This document shows positions 16,137-35,415 of a DNA stretch of 64,000 nt, in pieces (within the stretch, counting starts at the first letter, position 1; every line of letters begins with the position of its first letter). The position numbers and the translations under genes were made by a program. Origin of the DNA: Nitrospira sp. ND1 (GTDB lineage: Bacteria; Nitrospirota; Nitrospiria; Nitrospirales; Nitrospiraceae); contig NZ_FWEX01000006.1 in NCBI RefSeq assembly GCF_900170025.1, positions 3,091,839-3,155,838 of the forward strand, given 5' to 3'. Under the pieces are notes generated by a model. That model was not told the origin of the DNA. It made no database searches and was given only the letters and a program-made list of their open reading frames with translations.

Positions 16137-16823
16137 GTGAACGAGATCATGAACTGGATTGCGATTTGGGTGACGTTCAAGCTGGCTGCTTCCACGGCGC
16201 TTGTCCTCATGATCGTCGGCCTCCCGATCGCCTATTGGGTGAGCTTTTCGCGCCGGCGCTGGAAGTTTCTCGTCGAGTCGGTGGTGGCACTCCCATTGGT
16301 GCTGCCGCCGACGGTGCTGGGATTTTATATTCTTGTCGCCATCGGGCCGCACAGCCCGCTCGGACGGTTTTACAACGAGCTCATCGGGCATCCGCTGCCC
16401 TTTACCTTCGAAGGCCTTCTGCTCGCCTCCATTCTCTATAGCCTCCCGTTTGCCGTGCAGCCGTTCGCTGCGGCGTTCGAGCAGGTGGATCGGCGGTTGA
16501 TCGAAGCCTCCTGGACGCTGGGCGTGTCGAAGCTCGGCACGTTCTTCAAACTGATCGTGCCGCTGTCTAAAGCCGGATTGCTGACCGGTGCCGTGCTGAG
16601 CTTCGCCCATACGATGGGAGAGTTCGGAGTCGTCTTGATGGTCGGAGGAAACCTGGAGGGTGAGACACGCACTGTGTCCATCGATATCTACGATGAGGTG
16701 CAGGCCTTAAATTATGCCGGGGCTGCCAAGACCGCGCTCTTTCTCTTAGTCGTCTCATATGCCATCTTGCTCCTCGTGTATGCGGTCAATCGTAATGTGT
16801 GGGCAGCATGGCCGCGGAAATAG
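16137..16823 (+). CDS. modB: Molybdate ABC transporter permease
   Basis: The 228-residue integral membrane protein has five to six predicted helices and is the normal ModB length. ASTALVLMIVGLPIAYWVSF is the first membrane segment. VVALPLVLPPTVLGFYILVA and EASWTLGVSKLGTFFKLIVP (the EAA-type cytoplasmic loop that docks on the ATPase) are ModB signatures, and HTMGEFGVVLMVGGN is near-invariant. The start is either the GTG at 16,137 or the ATG at 16,149; neither has a strong ribosome binding site. The end overlaps modC by 25 bases. Confidence 0.93.
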   Translation: MNEIMNWIAIWVTFKLAASTALVLMIVGLPIAYWVSFSRRRWKFLVESVVALPLVLPPTVLGFYILVAIGPHSPLGRFYNELIGHPLPFTFEGLLLASILYSLPFAVQPFAAAFEQVDRRLIEASWTLGVSKLGTFFKLIVPLSKAGLLTGAVLSFAHTMGEFGVVLMVGGNLEGETRTVSIDIYDEVQALNYAGAAKTALFLLVVSYAILLLVYAVNRNVWAAWPRK

Positions 16824-17902
16824 ATATTCAACTCGTGAAGACGTTTCCCGGACGTGCGCCGATCAAGGCGCGGATCCGATATCCGGTCGAGGCGTCGACT
16901 GTCTTAATCCTCTTCGGTCCGTCAGGCTCCGGAAAAACGACGATCCTTCGATCGGTGGCCGGGCTGGAATGGCCGGAAGAGGGCACCATTCAATTTGTGT
17001 CGCGCACGTGGCTGGATACCGCGTCAGGGGTCAGGGTGGCGCCGCAAGATCGTCACATCGGCTACATGGCGCAGGACTATGCGCTCTTCCCGACCTACAC
17101 GGTGGCGGGAAACATCGGGTATGGCCTCCACCATCTCTCCGCACAGGATCGCAAAAAGCGCGTCGATGAGATGGTGGAGCTGTTCCAGCTGCGTGGACTG
17201 GAGACGGCGAAGCCGCGGGAGCTGTCCGGCGGACAACAACAACGGGTAGCCCTTGCGCGCGCGGTGGCACCTCGTCCGTTGTTGCTCTTGTTGGACGAAC
17301 CGCTTTCCGCCTTGGATGCGCCGACCCGGGTGCACTTGCGTGATGAACTGCGGAGTCTGCTGAAACAGCTGGCGCTGCCGTCGATCATCGTTACGCATGA
17401 TTGGACTGAGGCCCTCACCCTCGGCGATGTGATGGCGGTCATCAGTGCAGGGAACGTGCTGCAGGTAGGCCCGCCGATCGAGGTGTTCAGCCGGCCTCAA
17501 AACGCGGATGTTGCGCGTGTCGTGGGGATTGAAACCGTTGTGAAGGGGCGGGTGGTCGGATCCTCGGACGGTATGGTGCAGGTGAGCGTGAACGGGACCA
17601 GGTTGACCGCCGTGGAAGGTGAATCGGCAGGCCCAGACGTGTTCGTGTGTATCCGATCGGAGGATGTGGTGCTGGAACGTGGGCAAGCCACCGCGAGCAG
17701 CGCGCGGAATCATCTGGCCGGGACCGTCGTCTCGGCCACGGTGCTCGGGGCATTGGCGCAAGTGACGATCGATTGTGGGTTTCCCCTTGTCGCCATGGTC
17801 ACTCGTTCGACGGTCGAAGAGTTCGGGTTGTCATCCGGCGTTCCAGTCGTGGCCGCGATCAAAGCAGGTTCGGTCCACCTGGTGTCAAGGCAGAGCGAGT
17901 AG
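16799..17902 (+). CDS. modC: Molybdate ABC transporter ATPase
   Basis: The 367-residue protein has Walker A GPSGSGKTT (40-48), the signature LSGGQQQRVALARA (141-154), Walker B LLLLDEPLSALD, and the H-loop THDWTEAL. The C-terminal 130 residues contain a TOBE-like regulatory domain (SARNHLAGTVVSATVLG), the usual molybdate-sensing extension of ModC. The start is the GTG at 16,799, or an ATG at 16,808 inside the modB tail. With ModB and ModA it forms the inner-membrane importer. The TAG stop abuts the left end of a MITE-like repeat; its last base is the first base of the repeat arm. Confidence 0.94.
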   Translation: MGSMAAEIDIQLVKTFPGRAPIKARIRYPVEASTVLILFGPSGSGKTTILRSVAGLEWPEEGTIQFVSRTWLDTASGVRVAPQDRHIGYMAQDYALFPTYTVAGNIGYGLHHLSAQDRKKRVDEMVELFQLRGLETAKPRELSGGQQQRVALARAVAPRPLLLLLDEPLSALDAPTRVHLRDELRSLLKQLALPSIIVTHDWTEALTLGDVMAVISAGNVLQVGPPIEVFSRPQNADVARVVGIETVVKGRVVGSSDGMVQVSVNGTRLTAVEGESAGPDVFVCIRSEDVVLERGQATASSARNHLAGTVVSATVLGALAQVTIDCGFPLVAMVTRSTVEEFGLSSGVPVVAAIKAGSVHLVSRQSE

Positions 17903-23599: not shown

Positions 23600-24700
23600 A
23601 TCGCAAAGGCCACGCACGAGGGTCCCGGGTGATCGTAGGCTGAATGGCCGGCCCGTCACAGCTTTCGGCAATATCCTGTTCCCTTCCGAACGCGTCGCGA
23701 GTATCTGCTGTGAATTGCTTGCGCGCTGCCTCTGTGCCCTGGCTCGGCCGCTGTTGTTGGCGAGTCGACTCCTGGCTTGGAGTCGAGCCAATCAGACCGT
23801 TCGGGGTCTCTGGCTGTCGTGCTCGCTGTCTGGACGATTGAATGGGGAACATGATCGCATGGTTCTCTCCGGTCTATTAATCGCGAGGCAACATTCCAGA
23901 ATCGTTGGTTGGCGGCGTCAGGCTGTTGGTGTAGGCGGCCTGATGTTCCCTTACCGCTTCAAGCCTGTAGAGTGCTCCGTCAGCAACGCCATCTTTGGCC
24001 GGCACTGATCCCTCTCCTAGCGGGTTATTCTAAGAGTTGCCCCAGCATGTGCCCCGCTTGTCTGATTCAATAGGTAGGCCATTCCCCTGCGTCGGGAGAC
24101 GTGGTCGCGATCGTCACTTCTGTTCTCAGAGGGCACCTTCGTCAGTGTGCCTTCACCCGGTAGCCGTTCTCGTTGCGGGCGTAGATTAAGTCTGGCCTCG
24201 GTGAGGCTTGCCACTTCTGAGGCTACTGACTGGGATTGCGGCTGAAGCGCGGAGGCTCAGGAAAAGGTTGAAATACGGAACGACCGGGATTGCAACTTGC
24301 TCCTGTCGATATCCTGCGCTGAGGCACCGAACTTCGAAGTTCGCGATGTCGGTTTTCTATTGCCTGTGCGCTTCATGATCACACTGTGCGCCTTCCCAGG
24401 ATCGATGCCCTCCGGGCTGCGATGCGCAGGCGACGAACGGTGAGGTCTTGCCAGGGCGTGGCTCCGCTCGATTCGCTCTCCACCCGCAGCCGTTCCATAG
24501 ATTTGTTGAGGCGGTGTCGTCTGGCTCGCCTTAGTACGGACGACTTGCAGTGCGCCATCTAGCGGTCGCCATCGGCATCCCGCTTCAGCCTCTTTCGTCA
24601 AGTTCTTGTCGAATTCTACCGATATTCCTGCAGTAAGGGTGTGTCGTGCCCTGAGATGGATCCGTGCGCGCACGAAAGGGATGACGGTGTTTGCGGCATC
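23600..24700. other. Long intergenic region without a supported gene
   Basis: I see no gene with a convincing start and family in these 1,101 bp; open frames here are short or are complements of neighbours. Two strong stem-loops lie at 23,757-23,791 (13 paired bases with a 3-base bulge) and 23,793-23,808 (AGACC ... GGTCT). The region ends just before the TolC-like gene, so part of it must contain the promoter of the export operon. A structured RNA is possible but no known family is recognised. Confidence 0.4.
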
Positions 24701-26245
24701 ATGAAGACGATGGCACAAGAACCCCTGCAAGTATTGGCGTTGGTGGGGGCAATAGTGATGACCTCCGGGTGCATGATCAAGCCCTATGTGTTGACCGACG
24801 AGGATGTCCGGACCCGCGCCACCAATGATCTTCAGATAGTGTCGACTCTCCGGGAGCCGCTGTCCGGTCCGATCGATCTCTATGAAGCCATAGCGCGTGC
24901 ATTGAAATTCAATCTGGACGCCAAGGTGAAGGCCATGCAGGCACAGTTGGCGCATCAGCAGCTGAATGTGGCGCATTACACCTTGTTGCCGCAGCTGTCG
25001 GCGAATGCGGGATTTGACGGACGCAATTCCTACAGCGGAGGCGGGGCGCAATCGCTCGTTGATGGTCGGCCTGTCCTCGAGCCCTTTACGTCGTCCGATA
25101 AGAACGTGGTGTCGGGCAATCTCGCGCTGAGTTGGGACGTGCTGGATTTCGGTCTCTCCTACGTTCGCGCGCAGCAGGCGGCCGATAACGTCATGATTGC
25201 CGAAGAGGAGCGGCGGCGGATTGCAGTACGCCTCGTCCAGGATGTCCGGAGCGCGTACTGGCGGGCGGTCAGTGCGGAACGGGTGCTCTATCGGGTGAAA
25301 TTTCTGGATGAGTCCGTCAACAAGGCGTTGGAGCGCGCGCAGCAAATTGTCGATAAGAAATTGCAGACGCCCTTGACCCCGCTCAACTATCGCCGGGACT
25401 TGCTGAACATTCAGCGTGAGGTGCAGCGCCTGTACCGTGAGCTGAGCACGGCACGGGTTCAGCTGGCTTCAATGATGGGGCTGCCTCCGGGAACCGAGTA
25501 TGACCTGGCCGTGCCTCAGCGGACGGGCACCGTTCCGGTGGTTGACCTGGATACGGGGCGGATGGAGGAGCAGGCCTTGTTGCTTCGTGCCGAGCTTCGC
25601 TCTCTCGACTATCAAAAGCGGATCAATGCGAAGGAGGCGCGCACCGTATTCCTGGAAATGTTTCCCAACTTGAAGCTGAGTCTCGGCGGATATTACAGCA
25701 GCAACAGCTTCTTCCTCTATCAAAACTGGCTGGGGTATGCCTCTCAGCTCAGTTGGAACCTTCTGTCGGCGTTTCGCGTACCGGCCAAACTCAAAGCGGT
25801 GGAGGCGCATCGACAGGTGTTGGATGCCCAAAGTCTCGCGCTGACCATGACGATCTTGACCGAGGTGCATGTCGGCGCGCTGCAGTTCGCCCAGGCGAGC
25901 CAGGAATATCTCAATGCTAGGAGCTACCACGAGACGCAATTGGCCATTACCGATCATACCAAGAACCTGTGGCTCACGAAGAGTACCAACGATCTGACCT
26001 TCATTCGGGAGCGAGTGAATGACGTGCTGGCTGAAGTCCGCATGGACAGCGCGCAGTCCGGCGTCGAGTCGGCCTATGCCACGTTGATGGCATCGATGGG
26101 CGAAGATGCCGCGCCGACCGGCACCGACGCGCAGAGTGTGGCCGCCCTTGCCGATGAACTGAGGAAACAGCGGGTGCCTGCCGTCGACACGGTGTCGGAG
26201 TCAGGAAGGAGGCTGGAGTCCCATGCGATCCCATTGGCTAATTAA
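24701..26245 (+). CDS. TolC-family outer-membrane efflux lipoprotein
   Basis: From the ATG at 24,701 the protein has 514 residues. MAQEPLQVLALVGAIVMTSG precedes Cys24, a lipobox, so it should be lipid-anchored. The body repeats the TolC pattern in two halves: SGNLALSWDVLDFGLSYVRA at about residue 145 and ASQLSWNLLSAFRVPAKLKA near 365, each followed by long helices (RLVQDVRSAYWRAVSAERVL, LTEVHVGALQFAQASQEYL). It forms the outer-membrane channel for the exported protein encoded at the end of the cluster. The end overlaps the adaptor gene by 23 bp. An ATG at 24,710 is an alternative start. Confidence 0.9.
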   Translation: MKTMAQEPLQVLALVGAIVMTSGCMIKPYVLTDEDVRTRATNDLQIVSTLREPLSGPIDLYEAIARALKFNLDAKVKAMQAQLAHQQLNVAHYTLLPQLSANAGFDGRNSYSGGGAQSLVDGRPVLEPFTSSDKNVVSGNLALSWDVLDFGLSYVRAQQAADNVMIAEEERRRIAVRLVQDVRSAYWRAVSAERVLYRVKFLDESVNKALERAQQIVDKKLQTPLTPLNYRRDLLNIQREVQRLYRELSTARVQLASMMGLPPGTEYDLAVPQRTGTVPVVDLDTGRMEEQALLLRAELRSLDYQKRINAKEARTVFLEMFPNLKLSLGGYYSSNSFFLYQNWLGYASQLSWNLLSAFRVPAKLKAVEAHRQVLDAQSLALTMTILTEVHVGALQFAQASQEYLNARSYHETQLAITDHTKNLWLTKSTNDLTFIRERVNDVLAEVRMDSAQSGVESAYATLMASMGEDAAPTGTDAQSVAALADELRKQRVPAVDTVSESGRRLESHAIPLAN

Positions 26246-27008
26246 TTCGATGGTCGCACTGACGATCTTCTGCGCGGCGGTGGCCTTTCCGCAGGTCGGC
26301 TGGCCGAAAGACGACCGGCCCGTCCAGCTGATGCGGAGTGTCAACGGCGCGTTGCGTGGCATTGTGAAGGCCAGCACGCAGGCCGTGCTCTATTCCCAGA
26401 TTCAGGGGCGGATCAGCCAGATCCCGGTGAAGGAGGGGCAGCGGTTCGAGAAGGGCGCAACGCTGGTCGCAATCGACTGCGACAAGTATCGGGCGGAATT
26501 AGCGGGGGCCCTGGCCGAGCATGAGGCCAAAGACAAAACCTTCCAGAACAACAAAGAACTCACCAAACTCAATGCCGTCAGCACGCTTGAATTGGAAATT
26601 TCCGAAGCCGAGGCGAAGAAGGCCATCGCGGCCATTCGCCTGGCCGAGATCAACGTGCGAAGCTGCCATATCGCGGCGCCGTTTTCCGGCCGCGTCGTGG
26701 CGGTCATGGTCAATGAGCATGAAAACGTCTTCCCCAACGACAAGCTGCTCAGTCTTCTCGATGACACCAGTCTGGAGATCGAGTTGGTGCTGCCCTCCTC
26801 GACCTTAGCCTGGCTCAAGCGAAAGTCACCGTTCACATTCACCATCGACGAGACGCATCGGGAGTATCCGGCGAAGGTGAAGGAAATCGGGGCGAATGTC
26901 GATCCCGCCAGTCAGACGGTCAAGGTGGTGGGCAGCTTCGGGGCCCTCCCGGCCGATGTGCTCGCCGGGATGAGCGGCACGGCGCAATTTGCATCGGGAC
27001 AACCGTAA
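26223..27008 (+). CDS. HlyD/RND-type periplasmic adaptor protein, first copy
   Basis: The 261-residue protein has an N-terminal signal segment (SMVALTIFCAAVAFPQV) and the biotinyl-lipoyl-like halves of membrane fusion proteins, VLYSQIQGRISQIPVKEGQR and SCHIAAPFSGRVVAVMVNEH, separated by a helical hairpin (EHEAKDKTFQNNKELTKLNA). A beta-barrel part follows (LEIELVLPSSTLAWLKRKSP, ASQTVKVVGSFGALPADVLA). It would bridge the inner-membrane component to the TolC-like channel. It overlaps the channel gene and is followed by a second adaptor 4 bp downstream. Confidence 0.85.
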   Translation: MRSHWLINSMVALTIFCAAVAFPQVGWPKDDRPVQLMRSVNGALRGIVKASTQAVLYSQIQGRISQIPVKEGQRFEKGATLVAIDCDKYRAELAGALAEHEAKDKTFQNNKELTKLNAVSTLELEISEAEAKKAIAAIRLAEINVRSCHIAAPFSGRVVAVMVNEHENVFPNDKLLSLLDDTSLEIELVLPSSTLAWLKRKSPFTFTIDETHREYPAKVKEIGANVDPASQTVKVVGSFGALPADVLAGMSGTAQFASGQP

Positions 27009-27012
27009 CCCT

Positions 27013-28377
27013 ATGGCGACATCCACCCAACCGAGCGCACAGGAACTCGCGACGCTGGTCCATCTGGCGACCCTCACCCATTTGGAGGCGCAGATCCGTG
27101 TCGCGAAGACCGTCCAGGAACTGCAGTTTATCTCCGTCAATGAGACCCGCCGGCTGGTTCCCTATGAACAGGCCTATCTGCTGAGTCATGCCGGTGAAGC
27201 GGCCGGCGTCTCCCGAGTGATCTGTGCGTCCAGCGTGGCCGTGGTGGAACGCGATGCGCCGATGATGCGCTGGTTGGAAGAGATGGCTCAGGCTCTGAGG
27301 CACGCACTCCCGGGGGATGAACCCGTTACCGTCACGGAGGAAATGTGCCCCGACTCCTGCCGCGAGGGATGGCGGGAGCATGTCAGGGGCCATGTCCTCT
27401 GGTGTCCGCTGAAACACCCGGATGAAACGGTGTTGGGGTTCTGGTGGCTCGAGCGGGACTATCCCTGGGAGGAGAATGATCGGGCGATTATGCACCGGCT
27501 TGCGGGGAGCTTCGCCTATGCCTGGAAAGCCGTGGCGATGCGCCATCGAACCTGGTCCACGAGGATCAAAACGCCCTCGGTGTGGTTGATGGCTGCAGCG
27601 GTTGTCGGGGCGCTGTGTCTGCCGGTTCGCGTGTCGACCGTTGCGCCGGTGAAAGTGATGGCGAAGGAGCCGACGATTGTGAGCGCGCCGATGGACGGCG
27701 TGATTGCCGAGGTCCTGGTGCCGCCGAATACGGTGGTCACGCAATATCGGCTGCTGTTCCGCTACGAAGACACGAACCTCCGCAATCAGTTTCGGGTCGC
27801 GGAGAAGCAATTGGCGGTGGCGCAGGCCGAACATGTCCAGGCGATTCAGGGCGGCTTTGCCGATCCGCAACGAAAGGCCGAGGTTCCGCTCAAAGCCGCC
27901 GAAGCGGCGTTAAAGGAGACGGAGCTGACCTATGCCCAGGAGATGCTGGCGCAGGTGGAAGTCCGTGCCCCGCAGGAAGGATTGCTGCTGTATAGCGACA
28001 AAGCCGACTGGGTCGGGAAGCCGGTCTCCGTCGGCGAGCGGATCATGGATATTGCCGATCCGCGTCGCATTGAGTTGCGAATCGATCTCCCCGTGAGCGA
28101 CGCCCTCCTGTTACGGGACGGCGCCGATGTCGTAGCGTTCTTCGATGCACTCCCGCTGGAATCGTTTGGGGCGACCGTGAGTCGCGCGAGTTACCATGCG
28201 GAGGTGTTGCCCGGAGATATGTTGGCGTATCGGATCACGGCTGAATTGGCGACTGCCGATCCCCGTATCCGCATTGGCTGGCAAGGGTCGGCGAAGGTGT
28301 ATGGAGAACAGGGCCCGTTGGCATTCTTGTTGTTCCGCCGTCCGCTCATGGCCTTGCGCCAACTGGTCGGAGTGTAG
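27013..28377 (+). CDS. GAF-like plus HlyD-type adaptor protein
   Basis: From the ATG at 27,013 the protein has 454 residues. The first about 170 look like a GAF-type cytoplasmic domain (VPYEQAYLLSHAGEAAGVSR, LWCPLKHPDETVLGFWWLER). A single transmembrane helix lies near 190-205 (SVWLMAAAVVGALCLPVRVS). The C-terminal half is a membrane fusion protein: APMDGVIAEVLVPPNTVVTQ, a helical part (RVAEKQLAVAQAEHVQAIQG), and QVEVRAPQEGLLLYSDKADW. A cytoplasmic GAF domain on an adaptor is unusual and could sense a ligand or contact the export partner. It lies 4 bp after the first adaptor and 3 bp before the M50 gene. Confidence 0.82.
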   Translation: MATSTQPSAQELATLVHLATLTHLEAQIRVAKTVQELQFISVNETRRLVPYEQAYLLSHAGEAAGVSRVICASSVAVVERDAPMMRWLEEMAQALRHALPGDEPVTVTEEMCPDSCREGWREHVRGHVLWCPLKHPDETVLGFWWLERDYPWEENDRAIMHRLAGSFAYAWKAVAMRHRTWSTRIKTPSVWLMAAAVVGALCLPVRVSTVAPVKVMAKEPTIVSAPMDGVIAEVLVPPNTVVTQYRLLFRYEDTNLRNQFRVAEKQLAVAQAEHVQAIQGGFADPQRKAEVPLKAAEAALKETELTYAQEMLAQVEVRAPQEGLLLYSDKADWVGKPVSVGERIMDIADPRRIELRIDLPVSDALLLRDGADVVAFFDALPLESFGATVSRASYHAEVLPGDMLAYRITAELATADPRIRIGWQGSAKVYGEQGPLAFLLFRRPLMALRQLVGV

Positions 28378-28380
28378 CCG

Positions 28381-30519
28381 ATGGCCGGCCTGTCCTCAGT
28401 GTCCCCGCCCCAAGAACGCACCTTGCCTCCGCTGAGAAAGAACCTGCAGTTCCTCCGCGGCGCGCCCACACCGGAAGGGGTGCCGACCTGGACGATCGTC
28501 GATCCCGTTCGCAACAAATATTTCCAGATCGAGTGGCAGGTCTATCAGCTTCTCCAGCGCTGGTCCTGTGGCACGGTGGAAAAACTCGTCGCGGTGGTCC
28601 GGCGCGACACCACCTCCCGGATCCGGGCGGAAGACGTCGAAGACTTAGTGCGGTTCTTGTACGCCAACAGTCTGACGGAGCAATCGGCCAGCGGGCGGGT
28701 CAAGGACTACGTCGAGCAGGAAGTGGCACGCCATCAGGCCTGGTGGCAGTGGCTGTTGCATCACTATCTCTTCATCAAAATTCCGCTGATACATCCGCAT
28801 CGTTTTCTGCACGCCACACTGCCCTTGGTGGCGCCGCTCTACACACCCATGGCGGCGTGGCTGTTCGGAATGATCGGTGCGACCGGGTTGTTCCTGGTGG
28901 GACAGCAATGGGACACCTTTTTGTCGACCTTCCTGCATTTTTTCACGTGGCAGGGGGCGCTGATGTACGGCGTGGTGTTGTGTGTCGTCAAGGTCGTGCA
29001 TGAATTGGGGCATGCCTATACCGCAACGCGATTCGGATGCCGGGTACCCACGATCGGTGTAGCCTTGATGGTGATGATGCCGGTGCTCTATTCGGACATC
29101 AGCGACGCCTATCGGCTGAGTTCGAGGCGGAAACGTCTGTGGATCGCCGGAGCCGGGGTCGTGGCCGAACTGGGACTTGCTGCGGTCGCGACCTTGGTGT
29201 GGGGCTTCCTGCCGGATGGGGCCATCCGGAGCGTCGTCTTCGTGGCGGCGACGACCAGCTGGGTGATGAGCCTGGCGGTCAACCTCAACCCATTTATGAG
29301 GTTTGACGGCTACTATCTTCTGGCCGATGGACTGGGAATTCCGAATCTCCAGGACCGGGCCTTCGCCTTCGGGCAATGGCGGATTCGTGAACTGTTGTTT
29401 GCGCCAGGCGCGCCTCCGCCCGAAGCGGTCGGGCTGTCCAACAGGCGGATCCTGATCGCTTATGCCTGGGGTATCTGGCTGTATCGGCTTGTCCTGTTCA
29501 CCGGGATTGCGCTGGCCGTCTATCACTATTTTTTTAAAGTGCTCGGCCTCCTGCTGTTTCTGGTCGAAATCGTCTTCTTTATCGGTCTGCCGATCTGGCG
29601 GGAACTGACGAGCTGGTGGAGTCGCCGTGCTGCCTATGCATCGACGGGCCGGTTTGCCGTCACGATGACGGTCGTCGCCGCGATGCTGTTGCTTGCCTGT
29701 CTTCCATGGTCCAGCCGTGTCGCGATCCCAGGGGTGCTGCAGGCAGGGTCCTATGCAACCATCTATCCTCCGGCGCCGGGGCGGATTGCATCGGTGTCGG
29801 TGCATGCAGGGCAGTCCGTACGAGCGGGTGACACCGTGCTCGTACTCGAAAACCCGCTATTAGCCAAGGAGGCCCGGTTGGCCCGGACCCAGGTCGAGCT
29901 CTTGGATTTCAGGCTGCAACGTCAGGCCGGATACGCAGAGGATCGTCTCCAAGGTCAGGTTCTTGCCGAGTCGTTACGATCGAAACTCGTCGAGCTGGAC
30001 GGAGTTGCCGAGAAGCAGCAGCGCCTCGTCCTGCAGGCGCCCATCGATGGCGTGGTGGTTGATCAGGCCGATTCGCTCTATCCCGGCCGATGGATCAATG
30101 AGAAGCTGGCGGTCGCGTACGTAGTGAACTCTCGAACGGCCATAGTTACGGCCCTTGCGCCGGTTGAGGATCTAGGTGTGCTGGCAGTCGGACAGGAAGC
30201 GCTCTTCATCCCAAACGATGTGACGCGTCAGACCACTCGCGCCCGGGTCACCGAAATTCGGGACGTGGACGAACAGGATCTTTCCGTTCCCTACCTGGCA
30301 TCAATCTATGGGGGTGCCGTGCCCGTACGAAAAGATTCGCATGGTCGATTGCAGGCGGAGCAATCGGTCTATCGCGTAGAACTTGAAGTGCTGGACGAGG
30401 TTGTGCGGGCGGATCAGGTCGTGACCGGGCTCATCCACGTCGCCGGGACGCCTCAGAGCCTGGTTGCACGGATGTGGGACCGAGTCGTGGCGGTCATGAT
30501 CCGGGAGAGCGGGCTCTGA
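28381..30519 (+). CDS. M50-type membrane metallopeptidase fused to HlyD-like adaptor domain
   Basis: The 712-residue protein has an N-terminal PqqD-like segment (about 40-110), a polytopic membrane part with the zinc motif HELGH at 207-211, and NPFMRFDGYYLL at 303-314, where D309 is the second metal ligand of M50/site-2-type peptidases. After about residue 455 follows a periplasmic adaptor domain (YPPAPGRIASVSVHAGQSVR, VLQAPIDGVVVDQADSLYPG). Proteins of this layout (COG1994/YydH-like) are found with TolC/HlyD genes and large repeat proteins. It might process or help move the exported protein. The start has GGAG about 10 bases upstream. No ABC ATPase gene accompanies it. Confidence 0.88.
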   Translation: MAGLSSVSPPQERTLPPLRKNLQFLRGAPTPEGVPTWTIVDPVRNKYFQIEWQVYQLLQRWSCGTVEKLVAVVRRDTTSRIRAEDVEDLVRFLYANSLTEQSASGRVKDYVEQEVARHQAWWQWLLHHYLFIKIPLIHPHRFLHATLPLVAPLYTPMAAWLFGMIGATGLFLVGQQWDTFLSTFLHFFTWQGALMYGVVLCVVKVVHELGHAYTATRFGCRVPTIGVALMVMMPVLYSDISDAYRLSSRRKRLWIAGAGVVAELGLAAVATLVWGFLPDGAIRSVVFVAATTSWVMSLAVNLNPFMRFDGYYLLADGLGIPNLQDRAFAFGQWRIRELLFAPGAPPPEAVGLSNRRILIAYAWGIWLYRLVLFTGIALAVYHYFFKVLGLLLFLVEIVFFIGLPIWRELTSWWSRRAAYASTGRFAVTMTVVAAMLLLACLPWSSRVAIPGVLQAGSYATIYPPAPGRIASVSVHAGQSVRAGDTVLVLENPLLAKEARLARTQVELLDFRLQRQAGYAEDRLQGQVLAESLRSKLVELDGVAEKQQRLVLQAPIDGVVVDQADSLYPGRWINEKLAVAYVVNSRTAIVTALAPVEDLGVLAVGQEALFIPNDVTRQTTRARVTEIRDVDEQDLSVPYLASIYGGAVPVRKDSHGRLQAEQSVYRVELEVLDEVVRADQVVTGLIHVAGTPQSLVARMWDRVVAVMIRESGL

Positions 30520-30597
30520 GCAGGAGCGCTGGAATAACTCACCGATAGAGGATCAAGTTCGCCGCGACGATCACTCATTTGGGCTGAGGCAACGAGT

Positions 30598-33500
30598 ATG
30601 TTCGATTTTATCAAAAAGTATCTGCGCAGGAATGGTGAGCCATCAGAGCGGCCATCGTCCCTCGCGACTCCGTCTGCCTTCAAGCAATCTCTCCTATCCC
30701 TCGAGCAACGATTGATGTTTGACGCGGCGGCCGCGGCGACCGCGGCCGAGGTGCAATCCGAACAGGTGGCTCAAGATCAGGCCGAGGCGGCGGTCTCCTC
30801 GGAGGGGACTGCCGAGAGTACGACTCCTGAGCAGCAGGAATCTCAGGAGCTACTCCACGCGATTGGTTCCTACAGTCCCGGCGAATCCTCGACAGAAGTG
30901 GTCTTCGTCGACCCCACGGTTCCGGATTATGAATCTCTGCTCGCGGGCATGGGGCCCAATGTAGAGGTCGTTGTCCTGGATGCCTCCCGAGACGGGGTCG
31001 AGCAGATCGCCGAGTCGTTAACCGGGCGATCAGGCATCGACGCCATTCATCTGATTTCGCACGGCGACGCTGGAACATTGCAGTTGGGCACCGGCACGTT
31101 GAATGCCGAATCGATGTCGACTCATTACGCGGACGAGTTCACAACGATTCAGCAGACCCTGTCGGAGCAGGCTGACATTCTGGTGTACGGCTGTAATTTT
31201 GCCGAGGGTGAGGTGGGCCAGGCGGCTGTGGCCCGGCTGGCTGAACTGACCGGAGCCGACGTGGCCGCGAGCAGCGACAGAACCGGCCACATCGATTTGG
31301 GCGGCGATTGGAAATTCGAAACCCAGGTTGGATCGATCGAAACCGACCTCGCGATCACCGATGCCGCGCAGATGGACTGGAAGGGGATCCTGACGACCGA
31401 GACTGTCGGCGACCAATTCTCCTCAAGTTCCTACGACAATCACGATGGGACTCAGAAGTGGGCCTCAGATTGGACCGAAACCGATGCCGGCGGCGGTGGG
31501 GCAAGCGGCGGGGATGTGCATGTCGCTTCATCACAACTGAGGATCGACGCCGGTTCCGTGGGAGACCAAGCTTCGCGGCAGGTTGATCTGTCAGGAACGA
31601 GCGGCGCAATCCTCACATTCGATTACACCAACTCGTTGTCCGGCTCCGATCAAATCGAGATTCGCGTGTCAGCCGACGGAAAGACGTATACCACGCTCAC
31701 CGACGGCGTCTTCTCCCCTAAGTCGAATGCCGGAAGCGGCACCGTCAAGCTCGACATTTCCGGTTATGCCTCCGCGAGTACGACGATCCAATTCATTGTC
31801 ACTGGGGTGGGCGGGGGCGATCGCCTGTATGTCGATAACGTGCAGGTCGGCTATGACACCGGCGCCGCGAACAGTGCGCCGGCGATCAGCAGCAACGGCG
31901 GCGGAACGACGGCGTCGGTCACGGTCGGGGAGAACAGCACGGTCGTCACGACCGTCACGGCTACTGACGTTGATGCAGGGCACACCCTAGGCTATTCGAT
32001 CGCCGGTGGAGCGGACGCAGCTCGATTCACTATCCACAACAGCACGGGTCAGCTGAGTTTTGTCTCGGCGCCCAGCTATGAAGCCCCGGCGGACAGCGGC
32101 GGGAATAACGTGTACGACGTCACGGTGCAGGTGTCTGACGGCCAGGGCGGCACGGATACCCAAGCCCTCGCCGTGACAGTGGCAAACGTCAATGAGGCAC
32201 CGACAGACCTGGCCTTGTCGGCGAACACGGTGGCGGAGCACGCGGCCAACGGGACCGTCGTCGGCACCGTGAGCGGCAGCGATGTGGATATGGGCGATAC
32301 GAAGACGTACTCACTGACCGACAACGCCGGCGGACGCTTTGCCATCAACAGCAGCGCGGGCCAGATCACCGTCGCCAACCGATCGCTCATCAATTACGAG
32401 AGAGCCACCAGCCACAATCTGACGGTGCGGGTGACGGACAGCGGCGGGCTGACCTATGACGAGACCTTCACCATCAACGTGACGGATGTGAATGAAGCGG
32501 CTCCCAGGATCACCAGCAATGGCGGGGGGGCCACAGCCCTCATCAATATTGCGGAGAATGCCACGGCGGTCACCAGGGTCACTGCCTCCGACGCCGATAC
32601 CAGGCAAACCCTGGCCTACTCGATTGTCGGTGGGGCCGATGCCGCCAAGTTTACGATCAACAGTAGCACCGGTGCCTTGTCGTTTGTGTCCGCCCCGAAC
32701 TACGAGGCGCCGACCGATAGCGGCGGTAACAACGTCTACGATGTGACGGTCCAAGTGTCAGACGGAAGCGGCGGCGTGGACTCTCAGGCCATCAGCGTGA
32801 CCGTAACTGCTGTGAACGAGAGGCCGACGGACCTGAGTCTGTCGGCGAACACGGTGGCGGAGCACGCGGCCAATGGGACCGTGGTGGGGACGGTGAGCGG
32901 GAGCGACCCCGACGCCGGCGACACGAAGAGCTACAGCTTGACCAATACGGCGGGGGGGCGGTTTGCGATCAACCGGACGACCGGCGCCCTCACGGTCGCC
33001 AACAGTACCTTGCTGAACTACGAAGCGGCGACGAGCCATGCCGTGACCGTCCGGGTGACCGATCGGGGCGGGCTGACCTACGACGAGACGTTCACGATCA
33101 ACCTGACGAACGTGAACGAGGCCCCCAGCGGGACCAATGCGACCGTCACGATCACCGAAGATACGGCGCACATCCTCACGGCGGCCAATTTCGGGTTCAG
33201 CGATGTGGACGCCGGCGATGCGCTGAGTGCGGTGCGGATCGACACGTTGCCGACGGCCGGGACTCTGACCCTGTCGGGCACGGCGGTGACGGCGGGCCAG
33301 GTGATCACGCCGGCGGACCTCGCGGCGGGCCAGCTGGTCTTTACCCCGGCGGCCAACGCCAACGGGACCGGCTATGCCCGCGTGACCTTCTCGGTCCGCG
33401 ACAGCACCAATCTGTACGACCCGACGCCCAATACGCTCACGGTCAATGTCACCGCCGTCAATGACCGGCCGACGGACCTGAGCCTGTCGGCCAACACGGT

Positions 33501-35415
33501 AGCAGAGCATGCCGCCAATGGGACCGTGGTGGGCACGGTGACCGGGAGCGACCCCGACGCCGGTGACACGAAGAGCTACAGCTTGACCAATACGGCAGGG
33601 GGGCGGTTTGCGATCAACCGGACGACCGGCGCCCTCACGGTCGCCAACAATACCTTGCTGAACTACGAAGCGGCGACGAGCCATGCCGTGACCGTCCGGG
33701 TGACCGATCGGGGCGGCCTGACCTACGACGAGACGTTCACGATCAACCTGACGAACGTGAACGAGGCCCCCACCGGGACCAATGCGACCGTCACGATCAC
33801 CGAAGATACGTCGCACGTCCTCACGGCGGCGAATTTCGGGTTCAGCGATGTGGATGCCGGGGATGCGCTGAGTGCGGTGCGGATCGACACGCTGCCGACG
33901 GCCGGGACTCTGACACTCTCGGGCACGGCGGTGACGGCGGGCCAGGTGATCATGACGGCGGACCTCGCGGCGGGCCAGCTGGTCTTTACCCCGGCGGCCG
34001 ACGCCAACGGGACCGGCTATGCCCGCATGACCTTCTCGGTGCGCGACAGCACCAATCTGTACGACCCGACGCCCAATACGCTCACGGTCAATGTCACCGC
34101 CGTCAATGACCGGCCCGTGATCACCGCCAACAGTGGGAGCAGCGTGGCCGAAGGGGGCACCGACACGATTACGAGCGCAGAGCTTGCGGCGGTGGACGTG
34201 GACAACTCTGCCGCCCAGCTCAGATTCTCTGTCGGGACCGGTCCTGCCCATGGTCGTCTGGAGTTGACGACCAGGCCGGGGGCGGCGCTGGCGACTTTTA
34301 CGCAGGCCGATCTCGCGGCCAACCGCCTGGTCTATCGTCACGATGGATCGGAAACGTTGAGCGATCGCTTTACGTTTACGGTGAGCGACGGGGCGGGAGG
34401 TTCGGTGGGCACGACCACAATGACGCTCACGATCACTCCGGTGAACGATGCGCCGACCATCATCAGCAATGGAGGAACGGCGGCCGCCTCGATCCATGTT
34501 GCGGAACATGTGACCGGCATTACGGTCGTAACCGGCGCCGATGTGGATCTCCCTGTGCAGGCCTTGATCTACTCAATCAGCGGCGGAGCGGATCAGGCGC
34601 AGTTTACGATCGACGCCTCGACCGGTGCGCTGAGTTTCGTGGCTCCTCCTGATTTTGAAGCGGCCGCCGACGCCAATGGCGACAATGTGTATATCGTGCA
34701 GGTCCGTGTCACCGACAGCCAGGGCGGCACGGCGATGCAAACCATTCAGGTGAGGGTGACGGATGGGGCGGAGGTACGCCCCTCCGGCCCGGCGCTTCCT
34801 CCCTCCCTCATTCCGATGCCTTCGGCACAGGCGGGCACATCCGTTCAGGCTCATGACGAACCACTGTCGTTTACAACGCGACAGGAGTCGGTGAATGCGG
34901 TGTCCATGAATGGGACTGATCTCGCCGGGACGATGAGCCGCTATACCGGCAGCATGCCGCCGCGCGTCGCGCCCCATTCAGGTGATGTTCATCATGAGGA
35001 AGAGCCACCTGTCGCGTCACGACCCGTTCAGTCGGATGACAGGGAGCCTTGGAACTCATCCCCGATCTCATCTACGGATGCGATCGAGGCGGGCAGGGAT
35101 GGCGATTCGGGGCCGCAGCCCTCGGCGAATGAACTGGTACTGAATAAATTGGATGAAGTGATCCTGTCGTTGCGGGAGGCGGTCGCGGTGGACCGTGAGC
35201 CGCAGTCGTTGATGGCTCAGGTGACTGCGTTGGCGGGGACGACTCTCTCTGTGGGATTTGTGCTGTGGGCCGTTCGCAAAGGAAGGCTCTTGGCCGGTTG
35301 CTGCGCGACCATTCCTACATTGTCGGCAGAAGGGCCTGGTCGGGGTCAACACCTTCGCCCACAGCTCTTGACGCCAACGTCTTCTCCGTCGCACGGCCCC
35401 GTGAACATTCCCTAG
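30598..35415 (+). CDS. Large surface protein: LEPR-XLL, DUF4347 and cadherin-like repeats
   Basis: The 1,605-residue protein has no ordinary signal peptide. Residues 34-49 read SLEQRLMFDAAAAATA, matching the LEPR-XLL N-terminal motif (Gln replaces Pro). Residues about 101-263 are a DUF4347 domain (DAIHLISHGDAGTLQLGTG, ILVYGCNFAEGEVGQAAVAR). About 270-420 is a jelly-roll-like module, and 425-1395 are cadherin-like/calcium-binding repeats (TVAEHAANGTVVGTVSGSD, SPDAGDTK-like acidic loops). The C-terminus is Pro/Ser-rich with a single hydrophobic helix near 1545-1562 (TTLSVGFVLWAVRKGRLLAG). It is the likely cargo of the upstream export genes and probably an adhesin. The start has weak ribosome binding (GAGGCAACGAGT). 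Confidence 0.88.
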   Translation: MFDFIKKYLRRNGEPSERPSSLATPSAFKQSLLSLEQRLMFDAAAAATAAEVQSEQVAQDQAEAAVSSEGTAESTTPEQQESQELLHAIGSYSPGESSTEVVFVDPTVPDYESLLAGMGPNVEVVVLDASRDGVEQIAESLTGRSGIDAIHLISHGDAGTLQLGTGTLNAESMSTHYADEFTTIQQTLSEQADILVYGCNFAEGEVGQAAVARLAELTGADVAASSDRTGHIDLGGDWKFETQVGSIETDLAITDAAQMDWKGILTTETVGDQFSSSSYDNHDGTQKWASDWTETDAGGGGASGGDVHVASSQLRIDAGSVGDQASRQVDLSGTSGAILTFDYTNSLSGSDQIEIRVSADGKTYTTLTDGVFSPKSNAGSGTVKLDISGYASASTTIQFIVTGVGGGDRLYVDNVQVGYDTGAANSAPAISSNGGGTTASVTVGENSTVVTTVTATDVDAGHTLGYSIAGGADAARFTIHNSTGQLSFVSAPSYEAPADSGGNNVYDVTVQVSDGQGGTDTQALAVTVANVNEAPTDLALSANTVAEHAANGTVVGTVSGSDVDMGDTKTYSLTDNAGGRFAINSSAGQITVANRSLINYERATSHNLTVRVTDSGGLTYDETFTINVTDVNEAAPRITSNGGGATALINIAENATAVTRVTASDADTRQTLAYSIVGGADAAKFTINSSTGALSFVSAPNYEAPTDSGGNNVYDVTVQVSDGSGGVDSQAISVTVTAVNERPTDLSLSANTVAEHAANGTVVGTVSGSDPDAGDTKSYSLTNTAGGRFAINRTTGALTVANSTLLNYEAATSHAVTVRVTDRGGLTYDETFTINLTNVNEAPSGTNATVTITEDTAHILTAANFGFSDVDAGDALSAVRIDTLPTAGTLTLSGTAVTAGQVITPADLAAGQLVFTPAANANGTGYARVTFSVRDSTNLYDPTPNTLTVNVTAVNDRPTDLSLSANTVAEHAANGTVVGTVTGSDPDAGDTKSYSLTNTAGGRFAINRTTGALTVANNTLLNYEAATSHAVTVRVTDRGGLTYDETFTINLTNVNEAPTGTNATVTITEDTSHVLTAANFGFSDVDAGDALSAVRIDTLPTAGTLTLSGTAVTAGQVIMTADLAAGQLVFTPAADANGTGYARMTFSVRDSTNLYDPTPNTLTVNVTAVNDRPVITANSGSSVAEGGTDTITSAELAAVDVDNSAAQLRFSVGTGPAHGRLELTTRPGAALATFTQADLAANRLVYRHDGSETLSDRFTFTVSDGAGGSVGTTTMTLTITPVNDAPTIISNGGTAAASIHVAEHVTGITVVTGADVDLPVQALIYSISGGADQAQFTIDASTGALSFVAPPDFEAAADANGDNVYIVQVRVTDSQGGTAMQTIQVRVTDGAEVRPSGPALPPSLIPMPSAQAGTSVQAHDEPLSFTTRQESVNAVSMNGTDLAGTMSRYTGSMPPRVAPHSGDVHHEEEPPVASRPVQSDDREPWNSSPISSTDAIEAGRDGDSGPQPSANELVLNKLDEVILSLREAVAVDREPQSLMAQVTALAGTTLSVGFVLWAVRKGRLLAGCCATIPTLSAEGPGRGQHLRPQLLTPTSSPSHGPVNIP
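32826..34115 (+). repeat. Near-identical 645-bp tandem duplication in the adhesin gene
   Basis: Segment A (32,826-33,470) and segment B (33,471-34,115) are aligned without gaps at an offset of exactly 645 bp (215 codons). They differ by scattered single bases only. Each encodes a cadherin-like repeat followed by a DUF-type beta module (TITEDTAHILTAANFGFSDV). A third, more diverged copy of the first part begins near 32,200. The degree of identity points to recent duplication or ongoing gene conversion and makes copy number a likely variable trait. Confidence 0.9.

Follow-up and report, generated by a model that had tools for sequence, protein, structure and literature searches.

A conserved TolC, HlyD and M50/HlyD cassette tied to LEPR-XLL/DUF4347 surface proteins in Nitrospira and proteobacteria, with the M50/HlyD fusion as a possible inner-membrane component of their export

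In this study, we analysed a stretch of 64,000 nucleotides (the window) from the 4.45 Mb genome of Nitrospira sp. ND1, in which five co-directional genes on the + strand, overlapping or almost touching, occupy positions 24641-35415. They encode a TolC-like lipoprotein, an HlyD adaptor, a GAF-like/HlyD adaptor, an M50/HlyD fusion and a LEPR-XLL/DUF4347/cadherin-repeat protein. This content, first proposed in a sequence-only reading of the window, was confirmed by domain scans (OEP, HlyD_3, Peptidase_M50 plus HlyD, and DUF4347 plus cadherin/Big repeats), and the HlyD family PF13437 was found in three of the cassette proteins by Pfam scan. The features discussed below are as follows.

16799-17902: ModC/WtpC-like ABC importer ATPase (P0006), unrelated to the cassette
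24701..26245, + strand: TolC/OEP-family outer-membrane lipoprotein (PF02321 OEP, 93.8 bits)
26223..27008, + strand: HlyD/RND_mfp-type periplasmic adaptor with signal peptide (TIGR01730, 122.6 bits; cut-off 94.9)
27013..28377, + strand: GAF-like/HlyD adaptor (HlyD family match; GAF in homologues)
28381..30519, + strand: M50/HlyD fusion, 712 aa (Peptidase_M50 and HlyD by domain scan)
28432..28680, + strand: possible PqqD-like N-terminal strand-strand-strand/helix-helix-helix domain of the fusion, residues ~18-100 (AF2 secondary structure)
28999..29013, + strand: HELGH zinc/catalytic motif, residues 207-211 (H207, E208 and H211 invariant in 62 sequences)
29281..29316, + strand: second S2P motif NLNPFMRFDGYY, residues 301-312 (N301, R307, D309, G310 and Y311 invariant)
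29650..30465, + strand: HlyD/MacA-like periplasmic part of the fusion, residues 424-695 (PF13437)
30598..35415, + strand: putative cargo, a LEPR-XLL/DUF4347/cadherin- and Big-repeat surface protein, 1605 aa (domain scans)
30700..30729, + strand: LEPR-XLL tag LEQRLMFDAA, cargo residues 35-44 (LExRxx[FL]D pattern)
30898..31392, + strand: DUF4347, residues 101-265, predicted clan CD (caspase-like) fold (PF14252, 201 bits; cut-off 24.6)
31060..31062, + strand: candidate catalytic His155 of DUF4347, in SHG (His in 39/48, Glu/Lys in 9/48)
31192..31194, + strand: candidate catalytic Cys199 of DUF4347, in YGC (Cys in 48/48)
35209..35265, + strand: C-terminal hydrophobic segment of the cargo, residues 1538-1556 (the sole 19-residue segment above KD 1.6)

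The TolC reading frame is open from a GTG at 24641, and a start at the ATG at 24701 gives a lipoprotein signal with the lipobox TSGC. For the GAF-like/HlyD adaptor, the ATG at 27013 is a more likely start than the TTG at 26989, where its frame opens; the protein consists of a cytosolic N-terminal domain, one transmembrane segment at about residues 193-221 and a periplasmic HlyD portion. Its earlier label as a GAF-HlyD protein holds for the HlyD part, while the GAF part rests on homologues: Pfam gave no GAF match in the window protein itself and matched GAF in 6 of its 19 homologues (best 8.9e-11). The same reading had described an ABC ATPase as absent from the surrounding 10 kb, which is literally wrong, given the ModC/WtpC-like gene 6.7 kb upstream, and right in substance, in that this ATPase is an importer subunit and is not kept beside the cassette in other loci. 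Its statement that an RND pump is missing held up, since positions 14-46 kb contain no RND-sized open reading frame, the longest besides the M50 gene and the cargo being 640 aa.

Two questions raised by the sequence-only reading were whether the gene order is conserved and whether an ABC ATPase is ever linked to it. Among 104 related loci, made up of 24 from the same order and 80 from a public genome collection (a few genomes being in both sets), the order TolC, HlyD, GAF/HlyD, M50/HlyD recurs in 83, and the arrangement is therefore not due to chance; many of the deviating loci lie at contig ends or are permuted. The hosts belong to Nitrospirota, among them Candidatus Nitrospira defluvii, whose M50 protein is 93% identical to that of the window, and to Alpha-, Beta- and Gammaproteobacteria, together with single MAGs labelled Desulfonema, Desulfatibacillum and Campylobacteraceae; culturable hosts include Methylomonas methanica R-45363 and Phyllobacterium sp. 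YR531. When all neighbours were clustered, only three families recurred: adaptor/M50 at 77 loci, TolC at 58 and a giant repeat protein at 49. Near 10 of the 80 cassettes there were ABC-like genes, which were of differing kinds (ModC-like, dipeptide-importer-like and others) and had no fixed place. A linked ABC protein was accordingly rejected as a partner of the cassette, these neighbours differing from locus to locus.

Individual loci carry further neighbours. In the MAG labelled Desulfonema limicola (L086:3275-4732), 125 bases separate the M50 gene from the gene for a 485-aa Walker-motif protein whose start is RecF/SMC-like. In two Nitrosomonas MAGs, a protein of 1006-1008 aa with an EAL-like C-terminal part is encoded directly upstream of the HlyD gene (L090:4625-7645 and L130:2346-5372), in the usual place of TolC, and sensor-like relatives of it are encoded close to the cassette in L072, L074, L097 and L137. 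The EAL-like and sensor-like proteins hint that the cargo may be controlled through c-di-GMP or a sensor.

The link between the cassette and DUF4347 is strict. Across 61 genomes of the order, DUF4347 occurs in 25/25 genomes with the cassette and in 0/36 of the others (Fisher p 1e-17), and within the genus Nitrospira in 21/21 and 0/8, respectively (p 2e-7), both p-values being inflated by kinship of the genomes. Three DUF4347 genes surround a single cassette in G057 (contig C6:1151299-1169426), and one cassette may thus serve several cargos. G019 has an additional M50 gene (contig C32:49458-51295) that is broken, being fragmented and interrupted by an in-frame TGA, and that lies directly upstream of a second DUF4347 gene.

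The 1605-aa protein was identified earlier as a LEPR-XLL protein, an assignment in keeping with the tag LEQRLMFDAA; the match to NF012209, whose cut-off is 17 bits, is borderline (16.4 bits with the N-terminal fragment, 17.5 when the genome was searched), while most of its orthologues pass this cut-off and many score higher than the window cargo. Its repeats are of the cadherin, Big_9 and tandem-95 families. In all 60 N-terminally complete DUF4347 proteins the pattern LExRxx[FL]D stands upstream of the DUF4347 domain, 3 to 115 residues from the called start, compared with a background of 8/1186 other open reading frames. Near the tag, no hydrophobic run above KD 1.8 that resembles a signal peptide was seen in any of the 60; the window cargo reaches a KD maximum of 0.94 there, versus 2.17 for the N-terminal hydrophobic segments of both the window TolC lipoprotein and the periplasmic HlyD adaptor. 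The C-terminal hydrophobic segment is kept in cargo of Nitrospirota and Nitrosomonas and missing from alphaproteobacterial cargo, and was rejected as a universal cargo signal on that ground. The family scan found no RTX match in the window cargo, a search that does not reach C-terminal signals of non-RTX type.

Directly behind the tag, DUF4347 is predicted to adopt a caspase-like fold with a candidate His-Cys dyad. Its AF2 model (pLDDT 91.6) matches Tce1, a DUF4347 protein whose structure comes from a type VI complex (9qpe_G; Z 12.9, 146 residues, 3.0 A), and next SAVED-CHAT (Z 9.3) and caspase-3 (Z 8.1); CHAT, caspase and legumain matches span Z 9 to 7, the lower of them at scores that common folds also reach. 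SHG and YGC occupy the dyad positions of clan CD, after neighbouring strands. Nine copies (loci L047, L048, L050, L053, L072, L073, L077 and L080) have kept the Cys and carry Glu or Lys at the position of the SHG His; such copies may be inactive or of other chemistry. Another DUF4347 protein, PA0256, has been listed among type VI effectors without an assigned activity (PMC8262886).

The M50/HlyD fusion, the sole polytopic inner-membrane protein of the conserved cassette, combines a cytosolic N-terminal PqqD-like domain, if the reading given below is right, with an S2P-type membrane core and a periplasmic MacA-like HlyD part (AF2 model, pLDDT 85.8). PF02163 matches it with 30.5 bits, above the cut-off of 27.2, with HExxH and NPxxDG-type motifs present, and both HELGH and NPFMRFDG are intact in the window protein. 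Since H207, E208, H211, N301 and D309 do not vary across 62 members, the protein is probably kept as an active enzyme. The HlyD part aligns with MacA (9qgy_G) at Z 17.1 by VIA-align (rmsd 3.7, 219 aligned), and a fold search with the entire model returned mostly adaptor and biotinyl-domain matches. The likeness of the N-terminus to PqqD is weak in the window type, though the predicted fold topology fits: Pfam matched PqqD in 3 of the 62 members (best E 0.14), and an hhalign alignment was weak but colinear (P 0.009). It is clearer in the paralogous M50 proteins encoded beside a secondary SecA (SecA type, see below), which reach the Pfam cut-off.

The gene content and its order, the linkage of cassette and cargo, the conserved tag, the intact M50 motifs and the absence of linked motors lead us to propose that the five genes form one unit, a dedicated type-I-like exporter together with its cargo, with the M50/HlyD fusion as inner-membrane entry and leader protease. 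We regard this proposal as evenly poised between right and wrong, its inferred elements being export itself, its direction, tag recognition, cleavage and the energy source. The TolC-like lipoprotein, the periplasmic HlyD adaptor, the GAF/HlyD adaptor and the M50/HlyD fusion would form a conduit spanning the envelope, in which the fusion would replace the ABC transporter at the inner membrane and might act as an entry gate. The cargo would be recognised through its N-terminal LExRxxFDAA tag rather than a Sec signal peptide, most likely by the PqqD-like domain on the cytosolic side of the fusion, and the M50 site would cut off this tag or leader while the cargo is engaging the membrane, comparable to the C39 domain in ABC peptide exporters. 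The repeats would then exit through HlyD and TolC. With no dedicated motor encoded, whether ABC exporter or secondary SecA, energy would have to be drawn from the proton-motive force, a general machine of the cell or folding outside, and DUF4347 may cleave or anchor the displayed protein.

The suggestion in the sequence-only reading that the M50 protein is the inner-membrane component has gained ground from its standing as the only polytopic protein, from the invariance of its residues in 62 members, from the lack of any fixed ABC or RND partner and from cassette genomes in which type I exporters were not found (see below). To our knowledge, no translocation activity has been described for S2P-type proteases. 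A wider claim, that this is a distinct and widespread route in which an adaptor-fused intramembrane metalloprotease replaces the ABC pump, reads LExRxxFD and threads giant proteins through HlyD and TolC without a dedicated ATPase, is put forward tentatively, as something that could be so rather than something we expect.

The main rival is a Sec-dependent first step, which we consider unlikely but worth taking seriously. Here the cargo would cross the inner membrane via SecYEG, with the LEPR region as a weak signal and canonical SecA as motor; the cassette would serve only outer-membrane passage, anchoring or release, and the M50 enzyme would trim membrane-inserted cargo, for example at the C-terminal hydrophobic segment of Nitrospira cargo. 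Such a route would be powered without the need for a new motor. Transmembrane segments are known substrates of S2P enzymes, and one is found at the C-terminal end of the cargo. This segment cannot be a general M50 substrate, however, since it is missing from alphaproteobacterial cargo, and the lack of a signal-peptide-like N-terminal segment in all 60 cargos likewise speaks against SecYEG.

An ordinary type I system with its ABC exporter encoded elsewhere, the M50/HlyD fusion being an extra processing subunit, is in our estimate improbable. TolC or ABC genes of type I systems can be unlinked, and the window genome encodes six ABC exporters of the PF00664 type, of which one is HlyB-like (the only HlyB; TIGR01846, 1023 bits) and the rest are MsbA-like or cyclic-peptide-like. 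Across the whole order, HlyB is positively associated with the cassette (20/25 cassette genomes versus 10/36 others), but there is no clear association within the genus (p 0.18), and ten genomes have HlyB without the cassette. The HlyB gene of the window genome lies about 350 kb from the cassette and adjoins an HlyD gene of its own and a gene for an RTX-like repeat protein (L184:9400-19901). Moreover, no HlyB, LssB or PrtD exporter was found in four genomes that carry the cassette (G009, G045, G050 and G057), the first of them being the complete, single-contig genome of Nitrospira UBC2, and a fifth (G060) has PrtD only; a type I ABC exporter is therefore not an obligatory partner. This argument does not cover MacB-type proteins, MacB-like proteins being present in all four genomes tested, and MsbA-like exporters are present in all genomes.

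It is very improbable, as we see it, that the cassette exports a small molecule or signals the state of the envelope, with the giant gene as a frequent neighbour or target of control. HlyD and TolC components are likewise used in efflux, regulatory roles are common among GAF domains, and the Nitrosomonas operon includes the EAL-like gene; yet the cassette contains no drug or ion pump, its co-occurrence with DUF4347 is exact, and the two are closely linked in the loci read.

A related module has been described by Kamneva et al. 2015 (PMC4452313), who reported loci with secondary SecA_DEAD, M50/HlyD, GAF/HlyD and HlyD proteins and no ABC protein, and who suggested SecA_DEAD as the ATPase and the M50 protein as the pore. 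The idea of M50 as a translocation pore is thus not new. It is the sole related module that we found, and our search of the open literature found nothing linking LEPR-XLL or DUF4347 to M50/HlyD. In this order, a secondary SecA occurs in eight genomes and adjoins a paralogous M50 gene in the seven loci read, two of which have a LEPR-like protein (MEQLEARVLLAGD) in the operon; SecA-type operons seen complete also contain TolC and a LEPR protein. A maximum-likelihood tree places window-type and SecA-type M50 proteins in separate groups with full support. LEPR is common to genomes of both types, and 27 of the 29 genomes that are LEPR-positive above the cut-off have an M50/HlyD protein of one type or the other, the remaining two being drafts of 66% and 80% completeness. 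Despite the pairing of SecA_DEAD with M50/HlyD, GAF/HlyD and HlyD in these sister operons, an unlinked secondary SecA as motor of the window-type cassette was rejected and is nearly excluded for the window genome, which has only canonical SecA (905 aa) and no secondary SecA_DEAD; a second SecA is missing from 21 of the 25 cassette genomes, including G009, G045, G050 and G057, and among 17 distant cassette genomes outside Nitrospira 16 have no clear one and a single genome has one.

If the proposal is true, surface proteins that range from a thousand residues to several thousand are exported by a route without a known motor, in Nitrospira, nitrite oxidisers that often dwell in flocs, and in many proteobacteria. 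What makes the question of the motor tractable is a cassette of four genes in fixed order, together with a defined tag, a protease site that is intact, and natural genomes without any of the classes of type I ABC exporter searched for. The LEPR-XLL tag becomes tied to one protein family, and DUF4347 gains a predicted fold and a candidate dyad. The tie of the LEPR-XLL and DUF4347 families to the cassette and the predicted caspase-like fold are new from this work; compared with the sequence-only reading, the secondary SecA, the cassette-DUF4347 linkage, this fold and the HlyB exporter elsewhere in the genome have been added.

Several known systems resemble the cassette in part. With classical type I secretion (HlyB-HlyD-TolC, and LapB-LapC-LapE for adhesins) it shares HlyD-type adaptors, a TolC-type channel and a large, repetitive, adhesin-like cargo without a Sec signal; it differs in having no ABC exporter, in the intramembrane protease that stands in the inner-membrane place, and in a cargo with a conserved N-terminal tag and no RTX family match. 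The LEPR-XLL (NF012209) and DUF4347 (PF14252) families, both carried by the window cargo, are defined by sequence only. Intramembrane metalloproteases of RiPP systems (daptide NF041824, YydH/LiaK) have the same M50 core, and NF041824 also aligns with most of the N-terminal region of the window protein (171.5 bits, residues 38-402); the latter, however, scores below the family cut-off of 300, is fused to HlyD and is linked to a giant cargo instead of a short peptide. PCAT/C39 peptidase-ABC exporters, likewise joining a leader protease to an exporter, offer an analogy only, as the window system has no ABC protein and has a metalloprotease in place of a cysteine protease. The module of Kamneva et al. 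shares with the window locus the association of M50/HlyD, GAF/HlyD and HlyD proteins, an OEP protein in some loci, the absence of an ABC protein and a LEPR-like gene in the operon, whereas the window type has no secondary SecA in locus or genome, an M50 protein of a separate clade, and a four-gene order with TolC first and a DUF4347 cargo.
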